Origin: Gayadomonas joobiniege G7
GTDB taxonomy: Bacteria > Pseudomonadota > Gammaproteobacteria > Enterobacterales > Alteromonadaceae
Direction: 5' to 3'
NCBI RefSeq assembly: GCF_000300815.1
Contig: NZ_AMRX01000003.1
Location: forward strand, 310,001-374,000
DNA length: 64,000 nucleotides
The translations under genes and the position numbers were made by a program. Below are positions 26,010 through 46,253 of the stretch, piece by piece (position 1 is the stretch's first letter; every line of letters starts with the position of its first letter). The notes below the pieces were generated by a model. It worked only from the letters and a program-made list of their open reading frames with translations. It was not told where the DNA came from and did not search any database.

Positions 26010-26010
26010 A

Positions 26011-30880: not shown

Positions 30881-31584
30881 TGTTGACTTACCTTACTGGC
30901 CAGCCAGCTAGATAGCTTGGCAAAGTCAGCCCGACAGGTATTCCCTGGGTGTGTTTGCACAGCTTGATTTTGATATCCGGGTGCTTCTTTAATTGCCTCG
31001 TCAAAATGAATAAAAAGTGGACAAAGCTGATTGAGCTCGTTTTGCCATACGCAAAAAATCTCAGCTTCTATTTGAGACTGAGCATTGTACTTGTTCACTA
31101 AAATATAGTGCCCTTGTATCGGTTTGTAATTTTTATAAGCGTATTTTTGATACAAAATACTGTGACAGATGGGATCGCATGTGCTGACTTCTATAATAAA
31201 GTCTTTTCTGCTAGCGAACTCAAATACCGGAAATGTTTTAGGACAATCAAAAATAAACCAAGCGTTTTCTGGTAGCTCAATTTGTTTAAGGTGGGTAAAG
31301 AGGGTATCAGGCGTAATGCCGTTAGCCATCTGGCCATAAGGCAGCAATAGGATGTCTGAATCAGTTCGGTAAAATTGTTTGGCTAAGTCGACAAATGATT
31401 CACACTGAGCCCAGCCTTGCACATTTGGCCAAGGGAGCGCAAAGTGTACACCGAGTTGATTTTGTGGACACAACTCAATTAAAACACTTGTTTCGCCGTT
31501 TAGCCGGATACTGCGCGCTAAATTGGCTGCGACTGAACTAGTGCCAGTACCACCTTTGCTACCAATAACAAAAACATGTGGCAT
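30877..31584 (-). CDS. bcsQ: Cellulose biosynthesis protein BcsQ (ParA/MinD-like)
   Basis: A 235-residue ParA/MinD-family ATPase-like protein that in enterobacteria helps localise and assemble the cellulose machinery. The opening VFVIGSKGGTGTSSVAANLA is a deviant Walker A in which the usual GKT/S lysine is Thr; the same position deviates in Escherichia coli BcsQ as I recall. The signature Lys of SKGG is present. CPQNQLGVHF and WFIFDCPKTF follow the BcsQ pattern. It starts directly after the bcsR-like stop and overlaps bcsA by 4 nt. Confidence 0.9.
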   Translation of the reverse strand: MPHVFVIGSKGGTGTSSVAANLARSIRLNGETSVLIELCPQNQLGVHFALPWPNVQGWAQCESFVDLAKQFYRTDSDILLLPYGQMANGITPDTLFTHLKQIELPENAWFIFDCPKTFPVFEFASRKDFIIEVSTCDPICHSILYQKYAYKNYKPIQGHYILVNKYNAQSQIEAEIFCVWQNELNQLCPLFIHFDEAIKEAPGYQNQAVQTHPGNTCRADFAKLSSWLASKVSQQ

Positions 31585-31785
31585 CTAATCTTTACCTGTT
31601 GGGGCTAATTGATTGGAGGCCAGAGCGCTATTGATTTGTTTGAGCAAGGGGTAGTTTTGTTTTATTTTGGTGACCTTGTCAGCATGGCTTAATTCAATAA
31701 ACACGGCTTGCATTGGATATTCATCGACCAAGTTTTGCCAATCTTGGCTGAATTTATTGGATTTTACGTGCGCATCTGACTGCAT
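31585..31785 (-). CDS. bcsR: BcsR-like small protein
   Basis: A 66-residue protein (start 31785, ATG) at the head of the bcs operon, exactly where bcsR lies in enterobacteria. BcsR works with BcsQ and BcsE in the synthase regulatory complex. The only readable similarity is a short C-terminal pattern KIKQNYPLLKQIN resembling the WPLLAEF end of BcsR; the N-terminal half is not recognised. A GTG start 4 codons earlier is possible. Assignment rests mainly on position. Confidence 0.6.
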   Translation of the reverse strand: MQSDAHVKSNKFSQDWQNLVDEYPMQAVFIELSHADKVTKIKQNYPLLKQINSALASNQLAPTGKD

Positions 31786-31878
31786 AGTGACTCTCACAAC
31801 ATAAAAAGGGTCTTGGTTATTACTTTAACCTGTATATACTGATACTTAAATAGTTTAGTCTACTTGGGTTGTTTATGT

Positions 31879-33519
31879 ATGTGTAGCTTTACAATTGCCG
31901 GCCTACCCGAACAAGAATTGGCCACGTCATCCCAAAATAGTTATTTAATATTGGCAGAAAAACTAGATTTGGTTTTTAAGCTCAGTTATACCTTATTAAA
32001 AAACATTGTCGCTAAAAAGCAAGCGTTATTCTGTGTCTCTGCGGATATTGAAATTTTACGAACCACTTCTTTTGCAAACAATCAGACCTACTTTAAAACA
32101 TTAGAAAGGAATAAAAAGCTACATTTGTTTGGGCCAACAGATTTGTGTGGAGATGTGTTAAAAACTAAACAAATTCGCGCAATTTTAAACGAGCTAAAAA
32201 TTTACAAAAATTTTGCCGGTAGTGTGCTTATATTATCTCTAGATGCTAATCAGCTATATCATTTAAAAGAACAAGAGCTTGTTAACTTAGCTAATTATTT
32301 GAAAAGTCAAGCTGAGCGTTGGCAGTTAACTCTATATGTTAATTTGTATGGGCCTGCGACTCCGAAGTTGTCACCGAGTTTGCATAAGCTTGGAGAATAC
32401 TTTTCGGGGTTCTTGACGGTGCAAGAACAGAGTCAGGTCACTCAGTTATTTATTGACTATTGGATATCAAGTGCAGGCGTTAGTTACCAGAAAAACATTT
32501 TGTTAGACGAGGATTCTGGTCAGTGGCAGGTAAGAGAAATACCCCCAAGTACTGACGTTAGCAAAGAGGAATATAATAGCGCTTATGATGAAAAAGAGGT
32601 TTGGGTTGTTGCTGCCGCAATTAACGCGCTTGCACAAATGCCGGCGGTTTATCGTCAAATAGAATCGAACCAAGCGCTGTTTAAAAAAGCGCAACAATTG
32701 ACCGCGGCTACTGTGGTATTTGTGGTGACGCGACATACAGACTTAGTGTATTTAGCACGCCAATGTTATCGACTGCGAATAGAAAGAGGGGCTTGGTTAA
32801 AAATAGTGGTGCAAAATTTAGATGGTATAGTGCGCCATAGAGATGAGAGTTTATTGTTAAACTCAGGTGTTAACCTTATTTTGTATCAGCTATCCCATCC
32901 CTCTCGGTTTATTTCATCGATTGAGTCTATGCAAGGGTTAAAATTTACCCGTAAAATGCCACCAGACTTTGATTTTTTAGTTAAAAATATCGAAGTTAGC
33001 CGGGCCTATGGCTACCGAACTATGGATGCGTTTTGTAAGCAGGTTATTTCTGTTAGTCAAGCCGCAGACAATTTATCGGTTTCGTCTGTTCTGGTTAGAC
33101 TGACGTTATTGCCAAGTAGTCAACCGATTCATGCGCTGCGCATACTCCAGGTTAAGCGGGAAGGGGATCTTTATACAAACTTTAAAAATGATATTATCCT
33201 GTATTTATCTGCATGTCGTATCAGTGACGTAGATCGAGCGCTAGAACATATGTTTTTTCTTGATGTGGACGAATTTTTTGTCCGTAAGAGTGTGATTTCA
33301 GAGCACTTTTATATTCAACAATTCTGCCGAGCTCAATTGAAAGATCCATTGTTACAGCAGGCACAAGATTATTCTACGCAATTAAACCAACAATTAATTA
33401 TTGACGAGCAGGCTGATTATGAAAATGAAGATGCTAGCCAAGTTGCCGATAAGATCCGAGCGCTAAGAGTTGCCGATGCTGCCTACCCAGTTGAATTACC
33501 AATTAAGAGGGTGTTATGA
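31879..33519 (+). CDS. bcsE: c-di-GMP-binding cellulose regulator BcsE
   Basis: BcsE binds c-di-GMP and is needed for full cellulose output. The protein (about 546 residues from ATG 31879; a TTG at 31864 in frame is an alternative) has an N-terminal degenerate domain and a GIL domain where VVQNLDGIVRHRDESLLL contains an RxxD (RHRD) I-site-like motif, followed by LLNSGVNLILYQLSHPSRF. It is divergent from bcsR and overlaps bcsF by ATGA, the first gene of bcsEFG. Confidence 0.88.
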   Translation: MCSFTIAGLPEQELATSSQNSYLILAEKLDLVFKLSYTLLKNIVAKKQALFCVSADIEILRTTSFANNQTYFKTLERNKKLHLFGPTDLCGDVLKTKQIRAILNELKIYKNFAGSVLILSLDANQLYHLKEQELVNLANYLKSQAERWQLTLYVNLYGPATPKLSPSLHKLGEYFSGFLTVQEQSQVTQLFIDYWISSAGVSYQKNILLDEDSGQWQVREIPPSTDVSKEEYNSAYDEKEVWVVAAAINALAQMPAVYRQIESNQALFKKAQQLTAATVVFVVTRHTDLVYLARQCYRLRIERGAWLKIVVQNLDGIVRHRDESLLLNSGVNLILYQLSHPSRFISSIESMQGLKFTRKMPPDFDFLVKNIEVSRAYGYRTMDAFCKQVISVSQAADNLSVSSVLVRLTLLPSSQPIHALRILQVKREGDLYTNFKNDIILYLSACRISDVDRALEHMFFLDVDEFFVRKSVISEHFYIQQFCRAQLKDPLLQQAQDYSTQLNQQLIIDEQADYENEDASQVADKIRALRVADAAYPVELPIKRVL

Positions 33520-33686
33520 ATTTAACTGAATTAGCTGTTGTTATCGTATTTTCATTTTTAGCCGGTTATCTGTTTTGTTCGTTTGTAAATATATCAATTC
33601 GCCAGCTAAGGCGGTATTTGGTATTACTTACGTTCAGACATAAATATATTAAGCCTTATACAGGGACAGGAAAAAAACGTGATTAA
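33516..33686 (+). CDS. bcsF: Small membrane protein BcsF
   Basis: A 56-codon gene easily missed. The protein has one membrane helix (about residues 5-24, LAVVIVFSFLAGYLFCSFV) and a basic tail in which RYLVLLTFRHKYIKPYTGTG parallels the RYVKP tail of enterobacterial BcsF. BcsF recruits BcsE to the membrane-embedded synthase and links to BcsG. Its ATG overlaps the bcsE stop and its end overlaps the bcsG GTG start by 8 nt, so the three are translationally coupled. Confidence 0.88.
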   Translation: MNLTELAVVIVFSFLAGYLFCSFVNISIRQLRRYLVLLTFRHKYIKPYTGTGKKRD

Positions 33687-35289
33687 AGCGAACGCGCAAA
33701 AGACATTTTATTTGCAGGGACTTGGGCTCTGGAATTTATATTTTTTTGTTAAATTTTACCTTCACCTTGAGCAAAGTATTCAGTTAGATATCACCGCGAA
33801 CTTGGCGCTTGCTTGTTTTTTATCGGTTAATACACGAATCATCTGGCTGCAAAAGTGCAAACAGTGTTTTGCTGTCGTTTTTGCATTGTCTTTATTATAT
33901 AGCGAATCTTGGTTGCCTCCATTATCGCAAATCAGCGACAATATTAAATTGCTGAGCAATTTTAGTTGGTCTTATTTTGTTGAATTGGGCGGCAGGTTTA
34001 TTAGCTTAGAACTTATTTATGCCGCTATAATAGGTTTTGTTGGCTATCATTATTTATCGCGTTGGTTAAGGTTAACCAGTTTTAGTTTTGCTGGGTTATT
34101 GTGGTTAGAAGCCCAAGCTTTGATGCCAGCATCCATGCAACAGCCAGACCTGTTTGTTGAGCAAAAAACGCAGCCACAAAAAAAGAGAATGACCACTGAG
34201 CAAGACCTTAATGAAGAGGCCTCCTCACCTGAACAGCAGTTACTGCAGTTTTATCAGCATCAGCAAAATTATCCCGCTCAGGTACCCCAAAATAACGTCA
34301 ATTTTGATGTATTATTATTGAACATTTGTTCCTTGTCATACGATGACTTAACGGCTGCTGGAATTGAAAGCAGCTCCTTGTTTGATAGTTTTGACATTGT
34401 TTTTAAACAATTTAATACTGCAACTTCATATAGTGGGCCGGCAGCTTTGCGACTGTTGCGTGCTAGCTGCGGTCATGTGCCGCACGCAGATTTATTTGAA
34501 CAGGGGCCCAAAGCCTGTTATTTGTTTGAAAACTTAAAGTCTTTAGGTTTTAAAACCAGTTTAGTGATGAACCACGACGGCCATTTTGATAATTTTTTAG
34601 GTTTGATCCAAAATGAAGGGCACGTTGATGCAGCGCCTCTGCCGCTTGCTGGACGGGAAATAGAACAATATGCATTTGATAATACACCTGTTTACGATGA
34701 CGCCGATATGTTAAAACAGTGGTTAAAACAAGTTAACGCTAGCCCCCAGCCGCAAGCCTTATACTACAACACTGTAAGTTTGCATGATGGTAACCGTTTA
34801 GTGGCCGCTGGAAAACTGGATGCAGTGACCAGTTATGCGCGCCGTAGCAAAAACCTGTTTGCTGATCTTAAGCAGTTTTTAGCCGATCTCGCCGCAAGTG
34901 GTCGCAATGTGATGGTGGTGTTAGTACCTGAGCATGGTGCCGCATTAAAAGGCGATAAAATGCAGTTCTCTGGCTTGCGGGATATTCCCAGTCCTTCGAT
35001 TGTAAATGTTCCTGCGGCAGTGAAATTTATCGGCCCGAGCGCAGGTTACCAAAATCAGGCACAGGTGGTTGTGGCTGAGTTAGCCAGTCACTATACGTTA
35101 GGTACGCTGATAAAACGAGCAATTGATTTTGATGTATTTGCTAACCCATTGAACTTAAACGAGTTAGTTGCCGACTTACCCGATAACCGACTTGTTGCCG
35201 AAAACAAGGGCGCTGTATTGCTTGATTACAAAGGTAAACCCTATATAAAGCTGGCAGGAGATGATTGGCTGGTTTACCCAGGGTATTAA
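33679..35289 (+). CDS. bcsG: Cellulose phosphoethanolamine transferase BcsG
   Basis: Inner-membrane enzyme that adds phosphoethanolamine to nascent cellulose in the periplasm. The 536-residue protein starts at GTG 33679, has four or five N-terminal membrane helices (about residues 15-150), a linker, and an alkaline-phosphatase-fold domain. The nucleophile is S252 in NTATSYSGPAALRLLRASCG, the zinc ligand Cys is C217 in LLNICSLSYDD, and VPEHGA matches the Glu-His metal site. All residues known to be essential in Escherichia coli BcsG appear present, predicting a modified cellulose. Confidence 0.95.
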   Translation: MIKANAQKTFYLQGLGLWNLYFFVKFYLHLEQSIQLDITANLALACFLSVNTRIIWLQKCKQCFAVVFALSLLYSESWLPPLSQISDNIKLLSNFSWSYFVELGGRFISLELIYAAIIGFVGYHYLSRWLRLTSFSFAGLLWLEAQALMPASMQQPDLFVEQKTQPQKKRMTTEQDLNEEASSPEQQLLQFYQHQQNYPAQVPQNNVNFDVLLLNICSLSYDDLTAAGIESSSLFDSFDIVFKQFNTATSYSGPAALRLLRASCGHVPHADLFEQGPKACYLFENLKSLGFKTSLVMNHDGHFDNFLGLIQNEGHVDAAPLPLAGREIEQYAFDNTPVYDDADMLKQWLKQVNASPQPQALYYNTVSLHDGNRLVAAGKLDAVTSYARRSKNLFADLKQFLADLAASGRNVMVVLVPEHGAALKGDKMQFSGLRDIPSPSIVNVPAAVKFIGPSAGYQNQAQVVVAELASHYTLGTLIKRAIDFDVFANPLNLNELVADLPDNRLVAENKGAVLLDYKGKPYIKLAGDDWLVYPGY

Positions 35290-35300
35290 AACAAAGATAA

Positions 35301-35323
35301 GCCGGGTTTTGATCCCGGCATTT
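35301..35323. terminator. Hairpin between convergent bcsG and msrB
   Basis: GCCGGG (35301-35306) pairs with CCCGGC (35314-35319) around a 7-nt loop, followed by ATTT. It is GC-rich and well placed, though the T-tract is short. It could stop transcription from both sides. Confidence 0.6.
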
Positions 35324-35329
35324 AAAAAG

Positions 35330-35776
35330 TTATTCGGCGACTTTTTTCAGTGCTAATGCATTCATGCAATATCTTAACCCAGTCGGTTCAGGACCGTCTG
35401 GGAACACATGCCCAAGATGGGCGTCGCAAGTGCTGCAGGTTGTTTCTATACGTTGCATCCCATGTGAAAGATCTTGGTGGTACGCAATAACGTTTTTACT
35501 AACGGGTTCATTAAAAGAAGGCCAGCCAGTACCTGAATCAAATTTGTTTTGGGCATCAAAAAGTAAAGTGTCGCAGCACACACATTGATATTTACCAGGT
35601 TCAAAAAGGTTACACATTTGGGAGCTAAATGCGCGCTCAGTGCCTTTTTCACGGGTCACATGAAATACATCTTCATCCAATAACTCACGCCACTGCTCAG
35701 GTGTTTTTTCGACCCTACGATCGGCCGGTAAATTGCCGTTTTTAGCTAGTTCAATAACGTCTTGCCAGTTAATCAT
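35330..35776 (-). CDS. msrB: Peptide-methionine (R)-S-oxide reductase MsrB
   Basis: Repairs methionine-R-sulfoxide in proteins. The 148-residue chain has two zinc-binding CxxC pairs (CVCC, CSTC), the substrate-binding FDSGTGWPSF, HLGHVFPDGP, and the catalytic Cys in RYCMNALAL (Cys, not selenocysteine). Length fits a stand-alone MsrB. Single gene, convergent with bcsG. Confidence 0.96.
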   Translation of the reverse strand: MINWQDVIELAKNGNLPADRRVEKTPEQWRELLDEDVFHVTREKGTERAFSSQMCNLFEPGKYQCVCCDTLLFDAQNKFDSGTGWPSFNEPVSKNVIAYHQDLSHGMQRIETTCSTCDAHLGHVFPDGPEPTGLRYCMNALALKKVAE

Positions 35777-35857
35777 GGTGTCTCCTTGTTAAGTGAGGCT
35801 GCTTAACGCCTTGCAGCCGTGAGTAAGTATAGACAGAGCTAACGAATAAAAAATTTC

Positions 35858-36307
35858 CTAGTTAACTATTTTTAACGACCCTTGCATCATCGCATAGTGA
35901 CCTGGGAATGAGCAGAAAAACTGATAGTCTTCAGTTTTATTTAATTCTGCTACAGAAATTTGAGTACTTGTGGTTTCACCACCTCCTATAATTTTAGTGG
36001 CTGCAATCACTCTTTCATCATTATTTTTTAAATAATTATTATCCAACCCTTCAGACCAGCCATCAGAGGCTACTGTTTGCGCTTGTGCTTTAGTTGCTAA
36101 AACCCAGTTGTGACCCATTACGTTGGCGGGTAGAGAACCCGTATGTTTTAGGGTGACAGTAAAAGTATCACACGAAGCAGGCACTTTAATTTCGCTTTTG
36201 TTAAAACTCATAGCGTCGTTACTTTCTATCGTCGTTTGGCACTTCTCATTGGCCAAAGAAGCACTAGAAACAAAGGTTAAAAAAATAGCTGTAAGATATG
36301 CTTTCAT
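35858..36307 (-). CDS. azu: Azurin (blue copper protein)
   Basis: Periplasmic type-1 copper electron carrier. The 149-residue precursor has a signal peptide cleaved near SLA-NEK. Copper ligands are visible: His in VMGHNWVL, then Cys, His and Met in FFCSFPGHYAMMQG. The N-terminal CQTTIESND and a later Cys in PASCDTF match the azurin disulfide. No obvious redox partner is adjacent. Confidence 0.95.
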   Translation of the reverse strand: MKAYLTAIFLTFVSSASLANEKCQTTIESNDAMSFNKSEIKVPASCDTFTVTLKHTGSLPANVMGHNWVLATKAQAQTVASDGWSEGLDNNYLKNNDERVIAATKIIGGGETTSTQISVAELNKTEDYQFFCSFPGHYAMMQGSLKIVN

Positions 36308-36404
36308 GGCTCGACTCCTAAGTAGTATGTAGATGAGTTAAACAATAAACGAGCTGAGTGTGATGAGAGATCAATGTCGCCACTTGATTGTTATCTGGCG
36401 AGTA

Positions 36405-36433
36405 AATAATAATTGAGCCACAGGGTGTGGCTC
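36405..36433 (-). terminator. Intrinsic terminator of the DUF4105-DUF3015 operon
   Basis: On the minus strand GAGCCACA and TGTGGCTC form a perfect 8-bp stem with a 3-nt loop, followed by an AT-rich AATTATTATTTACT tail, 17 nt after the DUF3015 stop. Confidence 0.65.
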
Positions 36434-36449
36434 AGCTAAGCTTATAAAA

Positions 36450-36890
36450 TTATATGCTTGCCATTACAGAGCTATAATAGCTTTGAGCTGTTGGTTGACC
36501 ATTAGCCAATTGATTAGCCATTTTGGTGCGAATTGCGGTAATAACTTGAGGTTGATTTGCTGTGTTGACTTCCAACATTTCTAACATAGCAGTTAGGTGC
36601 TCGCCTTGACCTTGTGACGTCTCTTCTAACACACGGTCGAAGTTATCTTGGATAAACTTAGCTGCAACAACGTTTTTGCCTTCGCAAGTGTCGGCAGAAG
36701 AGATTTTTGAAGAAACGGCTGTGGTCCCCAGGTCCCAAATGATATTTGAAATAGCAGCCGCAGTGCCGTTATCATCAAAAATTATTGCGCCAATACCACA
36801 ATGCTTCCATGGATTAATTTTGTCATCAGCCATTGCATTTGATGAAATGAATGATGCGGCTAATAAAGCACTAATTGTTATTTTTTTCAT
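36450..36890 (-). CDS. DUF3015-family exported protein
   Basis: A 146-residue secreted protein with a clear signal peptide (cleavage near NAMA-DD). The mature start NPWKHCGIGAIIFDDNGTAAAISNI in two readable parts and IIWDLGTTAVSSKIS are characteristic of DUF3015, found in Vibrio, Shewanella and Alteromonas relatives. Two cysteines (CGIG and DTCEGK) may form a disulfide. Function unknown. It lies 7 nt after the DUF4105 gene, a pairing I recognise from related genomes, which suggests a joint envelope role. Confidence 0.85.
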   Translation of the reverse strand: MKKITISALLAASFISSNAMADDKINPWKHCGIGAIIFDDNGTAAAISNIIWDLGTTAVSSKISSADTCEGKNVVAAKFIQDNFDRVLEETSQGQGEHLTAMLEMLEVNTANQPQVITAIRTKMANQLANGQPTAQSYYSSVMASI

Positions 36891-36897
36891 TATTTAT

Positions 36898-38751
36898 TTA
36901 CCAGTATTTAGCTACGCTGAAGGAATACTCAAATGCCTTATCATATTGGATCGCAGTTCTTATATCCCAGTTTTCATTGGTTGAAAAACTTTGCTCCCAG
37001 ATTAGGTAATTTGAACTATCTTCTGACGCACTTATATTAAAGGCTCGGCCGGTTTTGACCGACATTGCCCACCAAGGTGTTAACAATAACACCGCTTCAA
37101 TTTCTGGTCCCGTCGATAGTTGAAAACTCGATAAGTCAGAAAATTGAATTTTATTTGCCAGAGACAAATTAAAGACGGAACCAGGTGTAAGTGTCCAACT
37201 TTGTCCCACATTGCCACTGACAAAAAACTCTGCACAATTTAGACAAGCTAAATTTTTAGCTCCGTAGCCCGAAGATAATGACCAAGCATATGCTTTATCT
37301 TCGGGCAAACCAGTTTTTGTAACGTTTAAATTATTTATTGAAAAGAAGATGAATTCACGAAGTGAGACATTATGATCATGAATTAATAAACTAACATCAA
37401 ATGCGATAAGCTCAGACCAAGGGACGCGTGCCGAATTAGCGGTTAAAAAGTCATAATAGCCAGCTCTGAAGTTAATCAAATTGGCTGACCCATATTCTGT
37501 GTTGTAGATTTGCGAAATGCTAACTTTACTACTGGGTTGAGCTGTATGTGGCGCTTTAGGTCGGTTGCTCAGCCAATCTGGTTTACCGCTGGGTAATTTA
37601 AACCTATGGTTTAGCAATTTGTGACGGGTGCTTGTTTGATTATCCGTTAGAGATTTATTTTTTTGCTCTAGAAATGCAAAATAATCGTATAAAGTATCAA
37701 TAATGCGTTTGCTGCTGGTCGCATCTCGATCAATGAGTGACTCAATTATTTGTTTGTCACCATTAATAATTTGTGTGACATCTCGCTTCTCGGAAGCGGT
37801 TAGCTGTATATATTTTTCGTATAACTGCTCTTGTCTGGATGGGTGATATATTATTTTACCTAGCAGGTGTTCGTTAGAGGAATGAGTAAGCTTTTTAATC
37901 ACATCAAACGGCATCACCCAAGGCTTGAAGTCAACCATCAGGTTTACATTGCTCACTAGCTCAATAAGTTTAGCAAGTTGATACGCGCAGTTTTCACGGA
38001 AAAAATAATAGGTCAGGCTGTGGTTTTCCAGTTCCCATAAATGAGCTAACAAAAATTTTATTTGCATGGGACTAAAATTGAGCTGATATTCCCACATGTC
38101 TCTAAGTTCAGTTTCATTATAGGCTAGCTGATGGTGATGGTACTTTTGATTCGAGAAGCGTCCTTGATAGCCCCCTGTGATGCCATTAAAGATGTATTCA
38201 AGTTTATTGTCTGATGCAGGAACAATAGCGCCATAGCTGAAAGTATTGTCTAATAATTTGGTATTATGGTTTTGGTTTAGTTTAAGTAGTAAGTGACCAA
38301 ACATAGATGCTGGGTTACCTAAATAACCACTAGCGTAAACTAAGCTAACACTGTTTGCTTTAAAGGCTTGCTGATAATCTGAGTAGTTGGGACATGTAAC
38401 CTCGGGCAATTTTAATTGTTTAAGCTGTGTTGTCAGCCAGAGTTTTCGTGCAGGAAAGCGACACTGGGTTTTAGGCGCTTGAGTAAACTGGTGAATGGTT
38501 GCTGTGAGTTCTTGTTTAGGATCTAGCGCACCCTGCGTAGATAAATAAAAATCATTCTGCGATAGTCGGCCTTGTCTGGTAAACAAACCTGTTTCTATAT
38601 GTAACAATCTTAACCAAGTTGGGTGCTGGCTTAATTGCTGCAAATTAGAGTTTGTAGGCACAGTTAGTTTTAGCATCAGTCCCTGAGCAGCGGCATTATT
38701 AATAAATAAATACAAACTTAATAAAGTCGGCAAAAAGTATTTTAAGTTCAA
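36898..38751 (-). CDS. DUF4105-domain exported protein (Lnb N-terminal-like)
   Basis: A 617-residue envelope protein with a signal peptide (to about residue 22). Residues ~125-290 hold the DUF4105 block: ASMFGHLLLKLN, TFSYGAIVP, YIFNGITGGYQGRF, and FFRENCAYQLAKLIE, a papain-like Cys/His arrangement (GH...ENC) in this family. The C-terminal ~200 residues alternate like beta-strands, perhaps a barrel ending in an aromatic-Trp (AKYW). Substrate unknown. First gene of an operon with DUF3015. Confidence 0.8.
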   Translation of the reverse strand: MNLKYFLPTLLSLYLFINNAAAQGLMLKLTVPTNSNLQQLSQHPTWLRLLHIETGLFTRQGRLSQNDFYLSTQGALDPKQELTATIHQFTQAPKTQCRFPARKLWLTTQLKQLKLPEVTCPNYSDYQQAFKANSVSLVYASGYLGNPASMFGHLLLKLNQNHNTKLLDNTFSYGAIVPASDNKLEYIFNGITGGYQGRFSNQKYHHHQLAYNETELRDMWEYQLNFSPMQIKFLLAHLWELENHSLTYYFFRENCAYQLAKLIELVSNVNLMVDFKPWVMPFDVIKKLTHSSNEHLLGKIIYHPSRQEQLYEKYIQLTASEKRDVTQIINGDKQIIESLIDRDATSSKRIIDTLYDYFAFLEQKNKSLTDNQTSTRHKLLNHRFKLPSGKPDWLSNRPKAPHTAQPSSKVSISQIYNTEYGSANLINFRAGYYDFLTANSARVPWSELIAFDVSLLIHDHNVSLREFIFFSINNLNVTKTGLPEDKAYAWSLSSGYGAKNLACLNCAEFFVSGNVGQSWTLTPGSVFNLSLANKIQFSDLSSFQLSTGPEIEAVLLLTPWWAMSVKTGRAFNISASEDSSNYLIWEQSFSTNENWDIRTAIQYDKAFEYSFSVAKYW

Positions 38752-38911
38752 TGTTTTTATTATCTTCCTTAATTTACAAATAGGTTACATCTAAACCTAC
38801 TTATATTCAAGTGCTTATAGTTTAGGCATGCGATATTGGAATATCTGGTTTTTAACGCGAATTTCGAATTTGCGAGTGAAAGACTCATGATGTTTAAATT
38901 AGTTAAATATT

Positions 38912-39691
38912 TTATTGATCATTCACGAGAAAAGAACCTAAACCAGCACATTGTTTTTTATATTTTTTTAACTGCCATTCGTATCGGACTCGATATTTGA
39001 TTTTTTTTAAAAAAGGTTTGTTGATTGTATTTATGGCCAGGTCGGTTTTTTTGATATCACTCGTAAAAGTTTCTTTTCGCTCGATAACGGCGGGGGATAA
39101 ACCTAACACTTGGATGTCCAAATCCCAATAATTCTGAATATCCACGTCAATTGGCCGGCAAATTCTCTCGGTTGCTTTTAACAATTTTTTGGCACCAGTT
39201 AAAGAGACGGCTTGCGCTTTAGTGGTAATAGGGATTTTTGAGTACTGAATTAATTTAAATGGCGGTATTTGAGGTATGGCAAGTGACTCAGTTATTCTGG
39301 ATTGGTCTTTTAAATATGTCAGCTTTATATAGTCCCAATTTTTGATGTGCTCAAAAACCCCATGCACATGACACAGGTTTTTGTTAATGATGCTGTCGTC
39401 TTCTAAAATGATTGCCCAAGGCAAGTTTTGACCGATGATTTTTTGCCAAATCAATCTATGGCTCAAGTAGCAGCCAATTTCTCCATTATTTAAAGGTTTA
39501 AAATAACGGTTTTGGTTTTGTTTTGTTGAATAAACAGCGTCAATTTCTGATTTAGATAAAATTCGGCCATCAACGGCCGCGACTCTTTCAAATGGAATCG
39601 CTAAAGCGGTTAACTGTTTTGCCATAAACGCATATCTATCTTGACTGCTATCTAGGTTTATTAAAAAAACTTTACCTTGGGGTTTATTCAT
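38912..39691 (-). CDS. Glycosyltransferase family 25 protein
   Basis: A 259-residue protein of the GT25 (LPS biosynthesis, LgtB/LpsA-like) family: KVFLINLDSSQDRYAFM at the N terminus, RVAAVDGR, GEIGCYLSHRLIW, and the acidic LEDDSII nucleotide-sugar/metal motif. It would add a hexose to lipopolysaccharide or another glycan at the cytosolic face. No other LPS genes adjoin it, so the acceptor cannot be named. Confidence 0.88.
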   Translation of the reverse strand: MNKPQGKVFLINLDSSQDRYAFMAKQLTALAIPFERVAAVDGRILSKSEIDAVYSTKQNQNRYFKPLNNGEIGCYLSHRLIWQKIIGQNLPWAIILEDDSIINKNLCHVHGVFEHIKNWDYIKLTYLKDQSRITESLAIPQIPPFKLIQYSKIPITTKAQAVSLTGAKKLLKATERICRPIDVDIQNYWDLDIQVLGLSPAVIERKETFTSDIKKTDLAINTINKPFLKKIKYRVRYEWQLKKYKKQCAGLGSFLVNDQ

Positions 39692-40109
39692 TCGATATCG
39701 TTTTTAATTTTTGCTGAACATTTAAAAGGATGTTAACGATCATTTATTTCACCTTTGTGGCAATTTTGCTGTCGCAATTTGCAGCTTCCGTCAATATTCA
39801 AATAAGTCGGCCGCCGAATTTATCGAGGAAATTGATATTGAATTTTTTGTTACCTCCACGCATCTCGTGTTTGGCGCAACGGCATTGCCCATTTTTTGAT
39901 CAGCACCAACTTCAAAGCAGTTCAACTTTTTATTTCACAGGCATAATAGTTTTTATATTTTCATTTAATACAAAAGTATTTTGTTGTTTGTGCTGTTTTT
40001 TGCAAATAAGAATAGCTTCACACTGTACGCTCTTATTAAACACTTTAAAAATGCGCAAGCATGTTTTTAACAACAGGCTCGTTATTTTAAATTTATATGA
40101 GGATACACA
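39692..40109. other. AT-rich intergenic region
   Basis: About 420 nt between divergent genes. No convincing gene: a 134-codon frame crosses into the MFS gene, is Phe/Leu-rich and lacks family features. The MFS ribosome binding site GAGGA lies at its right end (around 40098). Promoters for both neighbours are expected here but none stands out. Confidence 0.5.
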
Positions 40110-41300
40110 ATGCCTATTGCATTATTTGCATTAACTTTAAGTGCGTTTGCTATTGGTACGACAGAGTTTGTGATAGTGGGTTTAGTACCAACTATAGCGA
40201 TGGATTTGGGGGTTACATTGCCCAATGCTGGCTTACTCGTTAGCTTATACGCTGTTGGTGTTGCCGTTGGTGCGCCTGTTTTAACGGCTTTGACCGGAAA
40301 GTGGAACCGAAAGTACGTTTTATTAAGCTTGATGGCGCTATTTGTGACTGGGAATATTTTGGCATGGCAAGCACCAAGCTACGAGAGCCTGATTGTGGCT
40401 CGAATATTAACCGGACTTGCTCATGGTGTGTTTTTTTCCATAGGCTCAACGATTGCGATTGGTTTGGTCGCAAAAGAAAAAGAGGCCAGTGCTATTGCTA
40501 TCATGTTTACGGGGTTAACTGTTGCCCTTGTAACTGGTGTGCCGCTAGGAACTTGGATTGGCCAGAACTTTGGTTGGCGAGCAACATTTTTAGTCGTTTC
40601 TGCTCTAGGCATGCTTGCTTTGATTGGTAGCGCGCTATTGGTTCCAAACAATTTAAAGCAGAGTAGACCAGCAACCTTAGTTGAGCAAATGCAAGTGCTT
40701 ATTCAACCGCGACTCGTATTGGTTTATCTAATGACCATTTTGGGTTACGGTGGCACGTTCACTGCGTTTACGTATTTAGCGCCTATTTTGCAAGAAGAAG
40801 CTGGATTTTCGCCTTCTGCTATTAGTTTAATTATGCTGGTGTACGGCCTTTCTGTTGCCGCAGGTAACATTTACGGTGGCAAGTTGGCCGATAAAAAAGG
40901 ACCAATTTGCGCGCTAACTATTATTTTTTCTGTTCTGGCCGTTATCCTTTTTGCGCTAACTTTCACCATGGCAAGTAAAATAGCAGCAGTGATCACTGTG
41001 TTGGTATGGGGAGCCTTTGCGTTTGGAAATGTACCTGGTTTGCAAGTATACATAGTGCAACTTGCTGAGAAGTTTACGCCAAATGCAGTAGACGTTGCTT
41101 CAGGTCTCAACATAGCGGCATTTAATATAGGCATTGCCATGGGATCTATGCTAGGTGGGACTATCGTCAATGGCATGGGGCTGTCTGATACTGCATGGGT
41201 CGGTGCCCTTATTGCAGTCTCAGCGCTGGCTGTAACAGGTTTTAGCGGCTATTTAGATAAGCGTGAACAGGCAAATACAGCCAGTTCTACTGAGAGCTAA
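40110..41300 (+). CDS. MFS efflux transporter (AraJ/DHA1-like)
   Basis: A 396-residue major facilitator with twelve predicted helices. ALTLSAFAIGTTEFVIVGLVP in two readable parts and the loop 2-3 motif TGKWNRKYV are typical of the AraJ/arabinose-efflux-like DHA1 drug:proton antiporters; RILTGLAHGVFFSIG follows. GAGGA precedes the ATG. Substrate is unknown; nucleoside, sugar or drug efflux are all seen in relatives. It is the last intact host gene before the prfC mobile region. Confidence 0.88.
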   Translation: MPIALFALTLSAFAIGTTEFVIVGLVPTIAMDLGVTLPNAGLLVSLYAVGVAVGAPVLTALTGKWNRKYVLLSLMALFVTGNILAWQAPSYESLIVARILTGLAHGVFFSIGSTIAIGLVAKEKEASAIAIMFTGLTVALVTGVPLGTWIGQNFGWRATFLVVSALGMLALIGSALLVPNNLKQSRPATLVEQMQVLIQPRLVLVYLMTILGYGGTFTAFTYLAPILQEEAGFSPSAISLIMLVYGLSVAAGNIYGGKLADKKGPICALTIIFSVLAVILFALTFTMASKIAAVITVLVWGAFAFGNVPGLQVYIVQLAEKFTPNAVDVASGLNIAAFNIGIAMGSMLGGTIVNGMGLSDTAWVGALIAVSALAVTGFSGYLDKREQANTASSTES

Positions 41301-41370
41301 AAATTAATAGTGAGTACTTTGTTTAAGGTGTGACTCAAACCACACAGATCCCTGAGCATTTAGCCTTTCT

Positions 41371-41390
41371 TTTAAACCATGAGGTTTAAA
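41371..41390. repeat. Perfect inverted repeat upstream of the hipA tail
   Basis: TTTAAACC, 4-nt spacer, GGTTTAAA: an 8-bp perfect palindrome. A near copy lies at 42777-42796 upstream of hipBA, so it may be a shared operator or element end. Confidence 0.55.
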
Positions 41391-41505
41391 AATAGCGGAG
41401 GAAGGCTTTTTTGATACCTGGGCGAAAGAGAAAACCCATTTACCGCTGACCAAAGGCATGATCGACGCAATTGATAAACACGTGCGAGACGTGCCTTTAC
41501 GCTGA
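41389..41505 (+). pseudogene. hipA C-terminal fragment
   Basis: The frame reads FFDTWAKEKTHLPLTKGM then IDAIDKHVRDVPLR and stops. This matches the end of the intact HipA at 43.3-44.5 kb (FHEIWNREKTNLPLTKHM then IEVIEKHLQNVPL) position for position, but with many differences, so it derives from a different hipA rather than a recent copy. Everything upstream is missing; an in-frame stop lies at 41386. Confidence 0.75.
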
Positions 41506-41750
41506 CAAATGAACGTCAAAAAGAAGCCATGGATTGCCACTTTGTGTATGCCATCGTGCCAAAGCACAATGTGGAAGATGTCAGTAAACAGCGCGCCGTA
41601 CAAAAAGCGCGCGAGCAGGTTAATGCAGCCTCTACGCATATGACGCTGAAAGGTCAATCGCTCAGTAAGGAGCAGCTTGAATATGAAATTGAACGTGTTG
41701 CTGAGCAAATCATGGATAAGATGCCTTCAGACTTCTGGAACGAAGAATAA
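41478..41750 (+). pseudogene. Tail of a mobile-mystery-protein-A-like regulator
   Basis: The open frame (ATG at 41529) encodes DCHFVYAIVPKHNVEDVSKQ and a helical tail with STHMTLKGQSLSKEQLEYEI, ending SDFWNEE. This resembles the C-terminal part of mobile mystery protein A, an XRE-type protein of accessory regions that pairs with a Fic-domain partner. The N-terminal helix-turn-helix is absent and the frame overlaps the end of the hipA fragment, so a deletion has joined two scraps. Assignment is from memory of the family and moderate. Confidence 0.45.
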
Positions 41751-41764
41751 GCATAGCAAACGTT

Positions 41765-41841
41765 AATACGCTGATAGCGTATTGATAAAACGGTATCTAA
41801 TACATAGATACCGAGGTTCACTTTTTAAAGCATAAAAAGTG
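41765..41841. repeat. Three consecutive perfect hairpins
   Basis: Three stems, each with a 5-nt loop: AATACGC/GCGTATT (41765-41783), CGGTATCTA/TAGATACCG (41791-41813), CACTTTTTA/TAAAAAGTG (41819-41841). They sit between the mobile-element scraps and the orphan prfC start. Two could act as terminators; three unrelated perfect stems in 77 nt is unusual. Confidence 0.7.
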
Positions 41842-41890
41842 GTTGATTCAAACGGGTGTAACTTTAGGTGTAAATAAGGGTTTTTAAGGT

Positions 41891-41971
41891 ATGAGTGGTA
41901 GCAATTTTGTCCATGAAATCAATAAACGAAGGACCTTTGCTATCATCTTGCACCCCGACTTGAACCGGTAA
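41891..41971 (+). pseudogene. Orphan 5' end of prfC
   Basis: ATG at 41891 preceded by AAGG opens a 26-codon frame [20 protein letters not shown] ending HPDLNR. It parallels the N terminus of the intact RF3 at 44664 ([20 protein letters not shown]) and the DNA is near-identical through GCACCC, then diverges at once. This is what integration into the 5' end of prfC leaves behind: the displaced native start, with the element supplying a replacement start to the downstream gene. Confidence 0.88.
41936..41958. repeat. Putative left attachment site core
   Basis: TTTGCTATCATCTTGCACCC followed by CGA. It matches 44709-44731 with two mismatches (T/C at two positions). Homology to prfC ends directly after it. 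Confidence 0.75.
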
Positions 41972-42086
41972 GACAACTTAAGCCACCTAAAGCCTAAATA
42001 TTAATAAAAACAAAATCTTATAAGGCGTCTTGGGTTGTCATATTGACCATCAGAGCCTACTTTTGCCACCCTGAGTCACAGGAATA

Positions 42087-42141
42087 GGTACAAATTTGGG
42101 TACAAATTCTTGTGTGCAAAGGGCTTAAAAAATTTTGTACC
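42087..42141. promoter_or_regulatory. Putative integrase arm-type sites
   Basis: GGTACAAATT occurs twice in direct repeat (42087-42096, 42099-42108) and inverted as AATTTTGTACC (42131-42141), 35 nt before the integrase remnant. Such repeats beside a tyrosine-recombinase gene are typical arm-binding sites. Confidence 0.5.
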
Positions 42142-42175
42142 TTTTCTTAGTTTTCAATAACTTAGAGGAAAGAGT

Positions 42176-42621
42176 ATGGTACTCACTGAATCGTGGTTAA
42201 AAGCGCAGTACGGTAAAGCAAAAACCAAAGAACTTGTAAAAGCTGATCGTGACGGGCTTTGTGTTCGTGTATCTCCAAAAGGTAAAGTGACCTATTCGTT
42301 GCGGTACTCCTACGCCGGTGGCCGAAAACGGGTTGATCTTGGTTCCTATCCGTTAATGTCGCTCAAAGAAGCTAGGGGGCGAAGCGCTCAGGCTTCGTAA
42401 AAAGCTAGAAGAGGGACATGTGTCCAAAGATTGTTCGCCAGCTTGAGAAGCAAGCTATTATCGCCGCTGAATCCCTTTCAGGGCTTTTTGACCTTTGGTA
42501 TGACTCATACTGCATAAAGAACAAAAAAGGCCATCATGAGATCAAGCGAAGGTTTGAGCTTCATGTATTCCCTAAACTCGGTTCACTGCCAGCCGAGCGC
42601 ATCACTTTGCGGAGGAGTTAA
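42176..42621 (+). pseudogene. Tyrosine-recombinase integrase remnant
   Basis: The first frame (42176 to about 42372) encodes the DUF4102 arm-DNA-binding domain: DRDGLCVRVSPKGKVTYSLR and RKRVDLGSYPLMSLKEAR. A second frame continues EALRLRKKLEEGH and a third resumes PKIVRQLEKQAIIAA and LFDLWYDSYC (core-binding domain). At least two frameshifts, near 42372 and 42415, break it. The catalytic domain with the R-H-x-x-R-Y residues is absent. It cannot be active. Confidence 0.9.
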
Positions 42622-42623
42622 CA

Positions 42624-42737
42624 GAGGATAGTGTGCAGATCCCTGAGAGCCTGGCGCTTTACATTGATTACAATGCCATGGCGATGACTATCGCTCTTGT
42701 CTTGTCGTCAAGCTTAAGCCCCAAAAGTTTAAATTAG
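42624..42737 (+). pseudogene. Possible ArdA-like antirestriction fragment
   Basis: The frame reads EDSVQIPESLALYIDYNAMA, resembling the IPExLxxYIDYxAxA block of ArdA antirestriction proteins, then runs into unrelated sequence and stops. The first ~100 residues and the tail are missing. Recognition rests on this one block, so confidence is low. Confidence 0.35.
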
Positions 42738-42776
42738 GATGTCTATCGGTACTATCAGTACCAATATCCGCTTTAT

Positions 42777-42796
42777 TTTAAACCGTGCGGTTTATA
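42777..42796. promoter_or_regulatory. Inverted repeat upstream of hipBA
   Basis: TTTAAACC, GTGC, GGTTTATA: near copy of the palindrome at 41371. It lies 194 nt upstream of hipB, possibly a distal operator or an element-borne repeat. Confidence 0.45.
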
Positions 42797-42893
42797 TTCT
42801 TTGTTTTTTACGGCAGTTATCGCCGTGTTTTGCTGGTTTGTTAAACCATTTTTTGAGAAAATATCTATAATTATGTATCATTGGGTTGATGGT

Positions 42894-42911
42894 GATATGT
42901 TTTTATATATC
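42894..42911. promoter_or_regulatory. Candidate HipB operator
   Basis: GATAT, 8-nt spacer, ATATC, followed by further TATC/GATA half-sites up to about 42985. The known Escherichia coli HipB operator is TATCC-N8-GGATA, so the 8-nt spacing is suggestive. The region is strongly AT-rich, which lowers specificity. Confidence 0.35.
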
Positions 42912-42989
42912 GTTATTGTGCTATCTAGGGTGCTGTGATATAGTTTTATAGATATTGTAGAAATGTAGATATAGAAAAGCAGATCAAGA

Positions 42990-43298
42990 ATGGCTTATAT
43001 CAATGATCAGATACTGGAAGCGCTGCGAGAGGCGCGGGCGCGTAAGGGACTTAGCCAGCGGGAGTTAAGTGCGCGTTCTGGTGTGCCGCAGAGCCATATC
43101 TCCAAGATTGAGGCGGGTGGTGTTGATCTGCGTATGTCCAGTTTGATTGCTTTGGCGCGTGTGTTGGATTTGGAGCTGTTTTTAGCGCCTAAGAAGTCCA
43201 TGCCAGCTATTAAGTCGATTACGCGCTCTGCTGTCGGCGGAGACGAGTTGGAAGCTGTGTCGCCAGCTTATACTCTGGACGATGATGGCGATGAGTAA
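42990..43298 (+). CDS. hipB: HipB-like XRE antitoxin
   Basis: A 102-residue protein with an N-terminal XRE helix-turn-helix (residues ~9-65: LREARARKGLSQRELSARSG, then SHISKIEAGGVDLRMSSL) and an acidic tail ending DDDGDE. HipB binds HipA and represses the operon. The gene overlaps hipA by up to 17 nt. GC content is visibly higher than in the AT-rich leader, and the pair sits inside the prfC element. Confidence 0.88.
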   Translation: MAYINDQILEALREARARKGLSQRELSARSGVPQSHISKIEAGGVDLRMSSLIALARVLDLELFLAPKKSMPAIKSITRSAVGGDELEAVSPAYTLDDDGDE

Positions 43299-44517
43299 TG
43301 TGTCTACATTAAATGTTCTGCTTTACGGTCAGCCGATTGGGACGATTACCAATGTTGGGCATGACAGAACATTATTTGCGTTTACGGATGAATATATCAG
43401 CAATGAAGCACGGCCAGTTTTAAGTCTGGGGTTTAAGGACTCTTTGGGTGGTCTGATTACGGATTTTAAGCCGACACAAACCAAGCTAACGCCGTTCTTC
43501 TCGAACTTGTTGCCAGAAGAAACAATGCGTCATTATCTGGCGGAACGTGCGAATGTTAATCCGGCGCGTGAGTTTTTTTTACTGTGGTTGTTGGGGCAGG
43601 ACTTGCCTGGTGCGATAACTGTCGTACCCGCTGGCGGTGAAATGCTTCCACCCAATGTGCATGAAGAGGTGGAAGAGGGAGACGCACCAGAACAGCCTAT
43701 GCGGTTCTCATTGGCTGGGGTACAGTTGAAGTTTTCAGCGGTGCAGCAGGCAGCGGGTGGTTTAACTATTCCAGTATCAGGAACAGGTGGTTCTTGGATT
43801 GTGAAGTTGCCGTCCTCACGTTTTGAGGCGGTGCCAGAAAATGAATTTGCCATGATGGAAATGGCGCGCATGTTGGGTATGGATGTGCCTGAGACGCAGC
43901 TTTTATCCATTGACCAAATCGGCAATTTTCCTGAAGGGATTGGTCGATTTGGGAATAGTGCTTTTGCGATTAAGCGTTTTGATCGTAACGCCGATGGCAC
44001 GGCTATTCATATGGAAGATTTTGCGCAGGTCTTTGGGGTTTATCCTGAGGACAAATACAAGAAAGCCAGTATGCGCAACATCGCTCAGGTTATCGGCCTG
44101 GAAGGGCATGAGGGTGATGTGGCGGAGTTTATTCGTCGTCTGGTGTTTAATACGCTGGTCGGTAATGCGGATATGCATCTTAAGAACTGGTCGGTGATAT
44201 ATAACGATAAGCAAAGTGCCTCGATAGCACCAGCTTATGATTTTGTGTCAACCATTGCCTATATTCCTGATAACAGTGCGTCTCTTAAGGTGAGCCGCAC
44301 GAAGAAGTTCAGTGAATTTACGTTAGATGAGTTGTCGCACTTGGCCGCTAAAGCCATGCTGCCAGAAAAGCTGGTGCTGGATACGGCGCGTGAAACGGTT
44401 TCGGCTTTCCATGAAATATGGAACCGTGAAAAGACAAACTTACCTCTCACAAAGCATATGATTGAGGTAATTGAAAAGCATTTACAAAACGTGCCTTTGG
44501 CAGGCACGGGCGCATAA
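43282..44517 (+). CDS. hipA: HipA-like serine/threonine kinase toxin
   Basis: HipA kinases phosphorylate glutamyl-tRNA synthetase or related targets, stalling translation and causing persistence. The 411-residue protein has the N-terminal HipA subdomain, RFSLAGVQLKFSAV, the ATP-binding lysine region WIVKLPSS, the catalytic NTLVGNADMHLKNW (Asp) and the metal-binding APAYDFVST. All kinase residues seem intact. Starts at 43282, 43285 or 43291 are possible; 43291 (MSNVSTLNV) overlaps hipB least. It ends 146 nt before prfC. Confidence 0.9.
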   Translation: MMAMSNVSTLNVLLYGQPIGTITNVGHDRTLFAFTDEYISNEARPVLSLGFKDSLGGLITDFKPTQTKLTPFFSNLLPEETMRHYLAERANVNPAREFFLLWLLGQDLPGAITVVPAGGEMLPPNVHEEVEEGDAPEQPMRFSLAGVQLKFSAVQQAAGGLTIPVSGTGGSWIVKLPSSRFEAVPENEFAMMEMARMLGMDVPETQLLSIDQIGNFPEGIGRFGNSAFAIKRFDRNADGTAIHMEDFAQVFGVYPEDKYKKASMRNIAQVIGLEGHEGDVAEFIRRLVFNTLVGNADMHLKNWSVIYNDKQSASIAPAYDFVSTIAYIPDNSASLKVSRTKKFSEFTLDELSHLAAKAMLPEKLVLDTARETVSAFHEIWNREKTNLPLTKHMIEVIEKHLQNVPLAGTGA

Positions 44518-44663
44518 TACGCCACAATTTAATCGCTCTGGATTGATGAACAATACGGGAGTTTTTGCTGGCTGTAGGCCGTGGCAGACAACTTGGAAAT
44601 CAGGGCTTAGAGTTAACTTTATTTATTTGTATAAATATTTGTACAAAATGGGAATTTAGATAC

Positions 44664-46253
44664 ATGGCTGAAGCCAATTTTGTCAATGAAATCAATAAGC
44701 GACGCACGTTTGCTATCATCTCGCACCCTGATGCGGGTAAAACAACCATCACGGAAAAAGTATTATTATTCGGAAAAGCGCTACAAAAAGCAGGTACAGT
44801 CAAAGGCCGCGGCTCAAATCAACATGCTAAATCCGACTGGATGGAAATGGAAAAAGAACGTGGTATTTCAGTTACTACGTCGGTTATGCAGTTTCCGTAT
44901 AATGATTCTTTGGTTAATTTATTAGATACCCCAGGGCACGAAGACTTTTCCGAAGATACTTACCGAACCTTAACAGCTGTCGACTCCTGTTTAATGGTAA
45001 TAGATGCGGCAAAAGGGGTTGAAGACAGAACCCGTAAATTAATGGAAGTGACGCGTTTGCGGGATACGCCCATTATTACTTTTATGAACAAACTTGACCG
45101 CGATATTCGTGATCCTATGGAGTTATTAGACGAAGTTGAAAGTGAGCTGGATATAGCGTGTGCACCAATCAGCTGGCCAATTGGCTGTGGAAAAAACTTT
45201 AAAGGTGTTTACCACATTCATCGAGACGAGAGCATCTTGTATCAAAGTGGCCAAGGCCATACCATTCAAAACAGCCAGATCATTAAAGGGTTAAATAACC
45301 CTGAGTTAGATGAGGCAATTGGTGAAGAGCTCGCTAGTGAGTTGCGTGATGAGCTGGAATTAGTCATTGGCGCTTCGCATGAATTTGATCAAGCGTTATT
45401 TTTAGACGGTCAGTTGACGCCAGTATTTTTTGGTACCGCGTTGGGTAATTTTGGTGTTGATCATATGCTTGATGGGTTAACCAAATGGGCTCCTGCTCCT
45501 CAGCCAAGGCAAACGGAAGATCGTTTAGTAAATGCTGATGAAGAAAAATTCAGTGGTTTTGTTTTTAAAATACAAGCGAATATGGATCCTAAACATAGAG
45601 ACCGCATCGCCTTTGTTCGGATCGTTTCAGGTTGTTATCAGCAAGGCATGAAGTTTAACCATGTCCGAATTGGTAAAAATATCAGTATTTCAGACGCAGT
45701 GACTTTTATGGCCGGCGATCGAGAAAGAGCTGAAACAGCTTACGCAGGTGATATTATTGGCCTACATAACCATGGTACCATTCAAATAGGGGATACTTTC
45801 ACACAAGGCGAAAAACTCAAATTTAGTGGTATACCAAACTTTGCACCTGAATTATTTCGTCGCATTCGTTTACGCGATCCCCTTAAACAAAAACAATTAT
45901 TAAAAGGATTGGTTCAGCTATCCGAAGAAGGGGCTGTGCAGGTCTTTCGGCCACTGCAGAATAATGATTTAATTGTGGGGGCTGTCGGCGTGCTGCAATT
46001 TGACGTTGTGGTTGCTCGATTAAAAGCTGAATATAATGTTGATGCTATTTATGAGTCTATCAGTGTTGCGACAGCGCGCTGGGTGACTGGCTCAGATAAC
46101 AAAAAATTCGAAGAATTTAAACGTAAAGCAGAATCTAATCTGGCATTAGATGGCGGTGATAATCTCACTTACATAGCGCCAACTATGGTGAATTTAAGTT
46201 TGGCCGAAGAAAGATACCCAGATATACAATTTCTTAAAACGCGCGAACATTAA
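44664..46253 (+). CDS. prfC: Peptide chain release factor 3
   Basis: GTPase that recycles RF1/RF2 from terminated ribosomes. Starting at ATG 44664 the product is 529 residues, the same as Escherichia coli RF3; a longer upstream frame is rejected. G-domain motifs are clear: [20 protein letters not shown]; the [20 protein letters not shown] switch I region follows. The first ~20 codons and the promoter region lie within the element side of the attachment core, so the present start is probably element-supplied. GGGA lies 9-10 nt upstream of the ATG. Confidence 0.97.
44709..44731. repeat. Putative right attachment site core, inside prfC
   Basis: TTTGCTATCATCTCGCACCC followed by TGA, overlapping codons for the region just before the RF3 P-loop. 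It pairs with 41936-41958. Confidence 0.75.

Follow-up and report, generated by a model that had tools for sequence, protein, structure and literature searches.

Why does prfC, the release factor 3 gene of Gayadomonas joobiniege G7, have a second copy of its own beginning upstream of it? We examined this locus in a stretch of 64,000 nucleotides (contig NZ_AMRX01000003.1, positions 310,001 to 374,000 of the forward strand), hereafter the window; the features of the remnant located below are all on the + strand. The intact gene occupies 44664–46253, with argS downstream of it; 2773 bp upstream lies a 26-codon orphan copy of its start (41891–41971). The evidence makes it very probable that the region is what is left of a tandem array made up of two or more elements, integrative and probably mobilizable, that are distinct from the SXT/R391 integrative and conjugative elements (ICEs) and recombine at a core in the first prfC codons.

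The two prfC starts (41891–41958 and 44664–44731) contain the longest direct repeat reported for the 39–47 kb region, 57 nt at 41902–41958 and 44675–44731 with 88% identity and a spacing of 2773. When up to 3 mismatches were allowed, the 20-nt core TTTGCTATCATCTNGCACCC was found at only two sites in the window, 41936–41955 and 44709–44728, both pointing in the same direction; shuffled sequences gave a mean of 0.02 hits and none of 100 shuffles gave two. Similarity between the copies stops directly past the core. The original prediction, made for this DNA from its letters alone, had described a duplicated 26-codon prfC 5' end with homology ending right after a shared core, and both points are borne out. 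Integration at the 5' end of prfC is therefore a feature of the window, the downstream copy being the element-borne start (right attachment site, attR) of a hybrid prfC. A degenerate core with at most 1 mismatch revealed no third prfC start in the 3.9 Mb genome, a search that a more diverged copy would escape; its one extra match, on contig C2, is not prfC by its translations.

The remnant DNA was compared with 60 related genomes and matched 11 of them, the genome of the window counted. One of them, G038, matched three times: at a hipA-like gene on another contig, at its prfC region and at a site 43 kb from prfC on the same contig. It carries an insertion of 43.9 kb in the order rimI, prfC start, core, integrase gene (int), cargo, second element-borne start and prfC. 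The integrase of G038 (P0001) was then used as query. Among 394 genomes of the order (14 matches at E ≤ 1e-80) it matched G094 (58%, partial contig) and G384 (48%, 20.4 kb), and among 369 genomes of the class (1 match at 1e-100) it matched G759 (84%, a 29.1 kb element). G038, G759 and G384 thus contain complete insertions, with a presumed native start, core, int, cargo, element-borne start and prfC. Because each element brings its own first ~20 codons, prfC stays intact after integration, as read from the sequences of G038, G759, G384 and G781.

Named genomes yielded 50 loci on scanning; the 20 with the most similar integrases (L115–L134) were examined, the remaining 30 being at 23–43% identity. 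The prfC core lies 232–265 bp upstream of int, with int reading away from it, in 18 of these 20 loci (not in L128 and L134). No prfC core was found within 1.5 kb of the integrases of L074, L075 and L082 (37–44% identity). In G781, scanned from 100001 to 160000 on one contig, three co-directional cores occur at 120764, 129566 and 156570, of which the third is inside prfC. The middle interval encodes a mobile mystery A/B pair of helix-turn-helix (HTH) and Fic proteins, a large helicase/nuclease protein and, recognized by eye, a relaxase-like fragment; the last interval holds int, MobC, a relaxase, a coupling protein, ardA, AbiEi/AbiEii and a right end. As read from its sequence, the G781 array has the order of parts of the window, with its last element intact. 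The large protein of the middle interval (L264, 2250–8024, G781:C6; 1924 amino acids) contains DUF4011, an AAA helicase and an MTES_1575 nuclease and is defence-like. Two metagenome-assembled genomes (MAGs) labelled Alphaproteobacteria, G782 (L267, G782:C14) and G783 (L270, G783:C19), contain a junction of a right end with a left end.

Is the orphan the native start of prfC, displaced by an insertion, as the original prediction proposed? The 115 noncoding nt before its ATG scored above shuffles in 5 of 26 comparisons with stretches upstream of prfC, namely the G782 junction (208), the G038 attR (55), the G783 junction (52), the G759 attR (48) and G781-129566 (36), with shuffle maxima of 28–33. 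No match above shuffles was obtained with the prfC upstream DNA of 14 relatives (only 23 nt, up to the contig end, for G011) or with three left attachment sites (attL). The matches being confined to element right ends and junctions, the orphan was rejected as the native start. Across the junction, the window at 41523–42610 aligned with G782 over 1098 columns at 78% identity, and 41396–41522 aligned at 87%; 340 bp of G782 are missing between the two blocks. Since the DNA upstream of the orphan is an element right end, the orphan marks the junction of two stacked elements. The window accordingly has the join expected of a tandem array, in which the right end of one element meets the left end of its neighbour at the core.

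The DNA before the present prfC scored above shuffles only with G051 (134 versus 31) and, narrowly, with the G384 attR (36 versus 29). Such a pair of starts might also result from a local duplication of the prfC 5' end followed by insertion of unrelated genes between the copies, for which their 88% identity over 57 nt could be quoted. However, the upstream DNAs of the two copies are mutually unlike (score 20, shuffle maximum 32–35) and each matches different element ends. On this ground local duplication was discarded, and we give it practically no credence.

The ends were also compared through their putative integrase arm sites. The right end of the upstream element (element A) carries at 41854–41876 two direct repeats 12 bp apart, GGTGTAA(A), the second found by pattern and the first, which is degenerate, read from the sequence. 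The left end of the next element (element B) carries at 42086–42142 two direct GGTACAAAT sites 12 bp apart and one inverted site, and the right end next to prfC carries at 44627–44649 the sites TTGTATAAA and TTGTACAAA, again 12 bp apart; all of these were found by pattern. The same geometry recurs in the relatives. A direct pair 12 bp apart plus an inverted site is present in 5 of 7 left ends, the window included (G782 has one direct and the inverted site, G781-120764 none), and pattern matching placed a direct pair 12 bp apart just before the prfC start in 9 of 10 right ends, the exception being the orphan with its degenerate first site. The left and right arms of one element are of the same type in G038, in G759, in the last element of G781 and, by reading of the printed sequence, in G384. 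In the window the types are GGTGTAA on the orphan side, GGTACAAAT on the int side and TTGTA(C/T)AAA on the prfC side. Because their arm types are unlike, the orphan side and the int side look like parts of different elements.

The integrase pseudogene of element B (42176–42609), frameshifted and then truncated, matches residues 1–70 and 83–144 of a 422-residue integrase. Its N-terminal piece was assigned to PF13356 (E 2e-13); the second piece has a Pfam E of 0.036, below the cut-off, and was identified by 74% identity to the full integrase. The two pieces are 64% (67 amino acids) and 74% (62 amino acids) identical to the G038 integrase, as against 55% (67 amino acids) and 33% (64 amino acids) to the integrase of R997, which we take to be an SXT/R391 ICE. 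Eight integrases from the order search are 98.8–99.8% identical to that of R997 and ~38% to P0001. A core was seen in 6 of these 8 SXT-type loci, in each case on the strand opposite to int and beyond its 3' end. The window has the opposite arrangement: int starts after the core and reads away from it, 249 bp from the prfC codons that precede the core, by the same measure that gives 232–265 bp in the relatives. PMC2791158 names near-identity of Int among the features that define SXT/R391 ICEs.

The original prediction had placed the locus in that family, with integration and start replacement as its hallmarks. A single decayed SXT/R391-family ICE, with the orphan as native start, would share with the window the gene, the 5' target and the replaced start, and the 55% identity of the N-terminal piece could be read in its favour. 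It would not explain the 33% identity of the second piece to R997 against 74% to G038, the opposite orientation of int, an orphan whose upstream DNA matches element right ends only, or ends of different arm types. We consider this explanation very improbable, and membership of SXT/R391 was ruled out by integrase identity and orientation. An integrase remnant grouping with families of other target genes had been named as a finding that would refute integration of this kind; the remnant groups with integrases that target prfC, to judge from the core upstream of int in 18 of the 20 most similar named loci, although these are not the SXT/R391 ones. Two further observations concern the integrases. 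The identity to R997 of 55% in the arm-binding piece (42176–42385) and of 33% in the next hints at exchange of arm-binding domains among prfC integrase families. The genome of the window also encodes another full-length integrase of the broad family (G000:C7:977322-978542, 37–38% to P0001), with no prfC core within 1.5 kb.

Arm type and integrase sequence appear to vary together. For seven integrases, the ratio of N-terminal identity to identity over the remaining sequence was 0.91–1.01 in 7 pairs of the same arm type and 0.66–0.88 in 14 pairs of different type. In this test, which was devised after the sites had been seen, the true labelling ranked first among 105, or among 60 with the near-duplicate G783 excluded. 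With the window remnant added, it ranked in the top 2 of 210 or of 420, with a slight overlap of the ranges (same type ≥0.87, different type ≤0.90). The N-terminal piece of the window is closest to L128 (69%), of the same GGTACAAA type, and the second piece is closest to G782 (82%). We tentatively propose, at somewhat less than an even chance, that one prfC core is served by several arm-site dialects (GGTGTAAA, AAGTACAAA, GGTACAAA and TTGTACAAA) that covary with the N-terminal domain of Int. Different elements could then stack and yet excise independently, and the dialects would be a readable code for fossil arrays. Through repeated rounds of stacking and decay, the prfC promoter and first codons would have given way to horizontally acquired ones in many marine gammaproteobacteria.

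Downstream of int, a C-terminal ardA scrap was identified at 42606–42734 (tblastn E 9e-8 from the G781 ArdA, PF07275). Similarity to Int runs as far as 42609 and similarity to ArdA sets in at 42606, indicating that an internal deletion fused int to ardA. The DNA between ardA and the toxin–antitoxin (TA) genes is common to the window (42691–42827) and G781 (score 107, shuffle maximum 44). It is followed by intact hipB antitoxin-like (42990–43298, HTH domain PF01381) and hipA kinase-toxin-like (43282–44517, N-terminal domain PF13657 and kinase-like domain PF07804) genes. Among solved chains HipA matches HipT(Lp) best (3e-21), and 2wiu at 1.6e-17. Compared with the hipA of G051, differences are mainly synonymous (nonsynonymous divergence, dN, 0.087; synonymous divergence, dS, 1.19), which indicates constraint over the whole divergence, not necessarily since decay. 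hipBA may be active or under selection in the window; relatives of it occur at other places in G002, G004 and G006.

The position of hipBA just inside the right end is the slot of the AbiE-like genes in G759, G781 and G051. Such a slot for TA genes, occupied by hipBA in the window, by AbiE-like genes in these three relatives and by the HTH/Fic mobile mystery pair in the middle element of G781, is consistent with the idea that the genes keep the end in place, and does not prove it. Neither a relaxase nor a coupling protein was found at 20.9–44.7 kb of the window, as expected of a deleted remnant. The original prediction was right about the integrase remnant, arm sites, ArdA-like scrap and hipBA between the copies, and about a decayed element at the prfC 5' end that lost its transfer genes and retained hipBA and an element-borne prfC start.

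Just outside the interval that it covered, and not named there, lie two fragments attributed to element A. At 41395–41504 is the C-terminal tail of a second hipA, 56% identical to the tail of the window HipA and 69% to HipA of G006 (41396–41522 being the DNA 87% identical to G782). At 41505–41750 is the C-terminal half of mobile mystery protein A (TIGR02612 positions 74–150, E 2e-20, 73 bits for a family cut-off of 122.6), whose product is 92% identical over 75 amino acids to a full-length G782 protein. A possible, weak trace of an ardA end with a TTTTAAACC..GGTTTA hairpin was noted at 41333–41388; the hairpin is 88% identical to 42771–42794 and scores 36 against a shuffle maximum of 35, and the ardA trace (41333–41382) does not exceed shuffles (36 versus 39) and is retained as possible only.

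Another prfC locus resembles this remnant. In G051 (L055, G051:C318:32020-33972), AbiEi/AbiEii-like genes, recognized by eye, lie between a 31-bp motif shared with the window (42703–42733) and a TTGTACAAA right end at prfC. No integrase of the P0001 group was found in the preceding 19 kb, and the locus is probably a second fossil. The first prfC codons ATGGCAAAC..GATTTTCT.AATGAAATCAATAAGCG are near-identical in G007, G011, G051 and G405 (L062, L068, L055 and L080) across genera and families, and those of G007 differ from five of its same-genus relatives. These shared codons suggest that prfC starts have spread horizontally.

The neighbourhood of prfC was also compared within the genus. rimI lies upstream of prfC in 6 of the 7 other genomes (G004 has ribosomal-protein genes there) and argS follows prfC in 6 of 7 (the G006 contig ends inside prfC). 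The rimI–prfC gap is ~160 bp in G002, so that an uninterrupted prfC site, whose lack among sister genomes had been named as a counter-argument to insertion, does exist; other genes lie between rimI and prfC in G001, G003, G005, G006 and G007. None of the 7 genomes matched the non-hipBA remnant beyond the prfC start, which was matched in G002 only (best 5 candidates per genome). In the window, rimI ends at 21451, 23.2 kb before prfC, and the ~20 kb between rimI and the remnant (21460–41300) include a bcs cellulose operon (21460–31584). bcs is present in 3 of the 8 genus genomes, in the other two (G001 and G007) on contigs other than that of prfC and with the same two neighbour genes. The open reading frames of five element regions gave by tblastn only two weak matches in these 20 kb (at 24.2 and 34.3 kb, E 9e-5 and 3e-4), and the segment might have been cargo of element A.

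The end types, the junction, the deletion, the hybrid prfC start and the complete relatives are observed directly, and from them the following history can be proposed. Each element brings along, at its right end, a pair of arm sites and ~20 initial prfC codons of its own. Element A, whose right end extends over ~41395–41958 (hipA tail, mobile mystery protein A fragment, arm sites and prfC start), probably entered prfC first, supplying its start. Element B, or a successor, would then have integrated into the start supplied by A, leaving the right end of A as the orphan and giving prfC its present start, an order suggested by the end types. The left part of A would later have been deleted with its integrase and presumably the native start, and the middle of B was deleted too, fusing int to ardA. 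These deletions would have fixed the remainder in place, hipBA staying intact just inside the right end. prfC may now be transcribed from that right end; a promoter scan of 41300–44760 found 3 candidates versus 6.4 expected, none of them at the right end.

Several points weigh against a tandem array of A and B. Neither the left end of A nor the native prfC start was found, and 20 kb with the bcs operon separate rimI from the A remnant. The upstream DNA of the orphan did not match the G781 attR, G781-120764, the G384 attR or the G051 ends. G781, G782, G783, G038 and G759 are MAG contigs, for which chimeric assembly is possible. The junction contigs of G782 and G783 lack a full prfC, which lies on other contigs, so that a junction alone is no proof of a tandem at prfC. 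One element with an intact attP-like junction could instead have arrived by homologous recombination or through a second integrase, a tandem never having formed. The G782 and G783 junctions are compatible with this route, as are the second integrases of G781 (by Pfam) and G038 (by eye), and an SXT mutant lacking the set activators was reported to sit elsewhere with attP intact (PMC4344509). Against it stand two different right ends in the window, one of them in frame with prfC, and the co-directional cores; we consider it unlikely.

Finally, the GGTACAAAT arms on the left and the TTGTACAAA arms on the prfC side are not identical, so that B may itself be two elements. This would be a compatible form of the tandem array, with three stacked elements A, B and C, in which the int–ardA deletion took the right end of B and the left end of C, and the int remnant and the hipBA-bearing right end come from different elements. 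The agreement of arms within G038, G759, the last element of G781 and G384 speaks for it, as do the three cores of G781; the two-letter difference could nevertheless be drift, and no second junction core remains. Three elements are a real but somewhat doubtful possibility. Together, these results favour a decayed tandem array of at least two elements.

If so, use of the prfC site is not confined to SXT/R391: another integrase group integrates there and forms arrays of unlike elements, and such arrays can decay to a scar that alters the start of a translation gene. Arm-site types then offer a way to test what keeps related integrases from acting on neighbouring elements that share their core. 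Among the literature titles and abstract beginnings searched, none dealt with a mobilizable group outside SXT that sits at prfC, or with types of arm site among stacked elements.

How does the locus compare with known systems? SXT/R391 ICEs share with the window the prfC 5' target and a tyrosine integrase, and PMC2791158 cites arrays of SXT and R391 in tandem; their Int is, however, ~38% identical overall, and int lies on the other side of the core in the other orientation. The cdtI-like Escherichia coli phages and the E. coli prfC prophage of G384 (contig of SCPM-O-B-8794) have integrases 47–49% identical to P0001. In the G384 prophage int follows the prfC core, as in the window, but the cargo is phage-like (as read from its open reading frames, with no family search) and the arm sites are different; no phage gene was seen in the window remnant. 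Salmonella genomic island 1 (SGI1) is mobilizable and forms tandem arrays at its attachment site, thdF/trmE (PMC2297512); its arrays differ in target gene and consist of copies of one element, not of different elements as proposed here. The G038, G759 and G781 group (NVWF01000019, JADGFA010000013 and JANQJP010000013) agrees with the window in Int, core, arm geometry and right-end prfC start, and a TA pair lies between ardA and the right end in G781 (by Pfam) and G759 (by eye), as in the window. These elements are complete, with relaxase and coupling protein (by Pfam in G781, by eye in G759 and G038), whereas the window retains their ends, scraps and hipBA.

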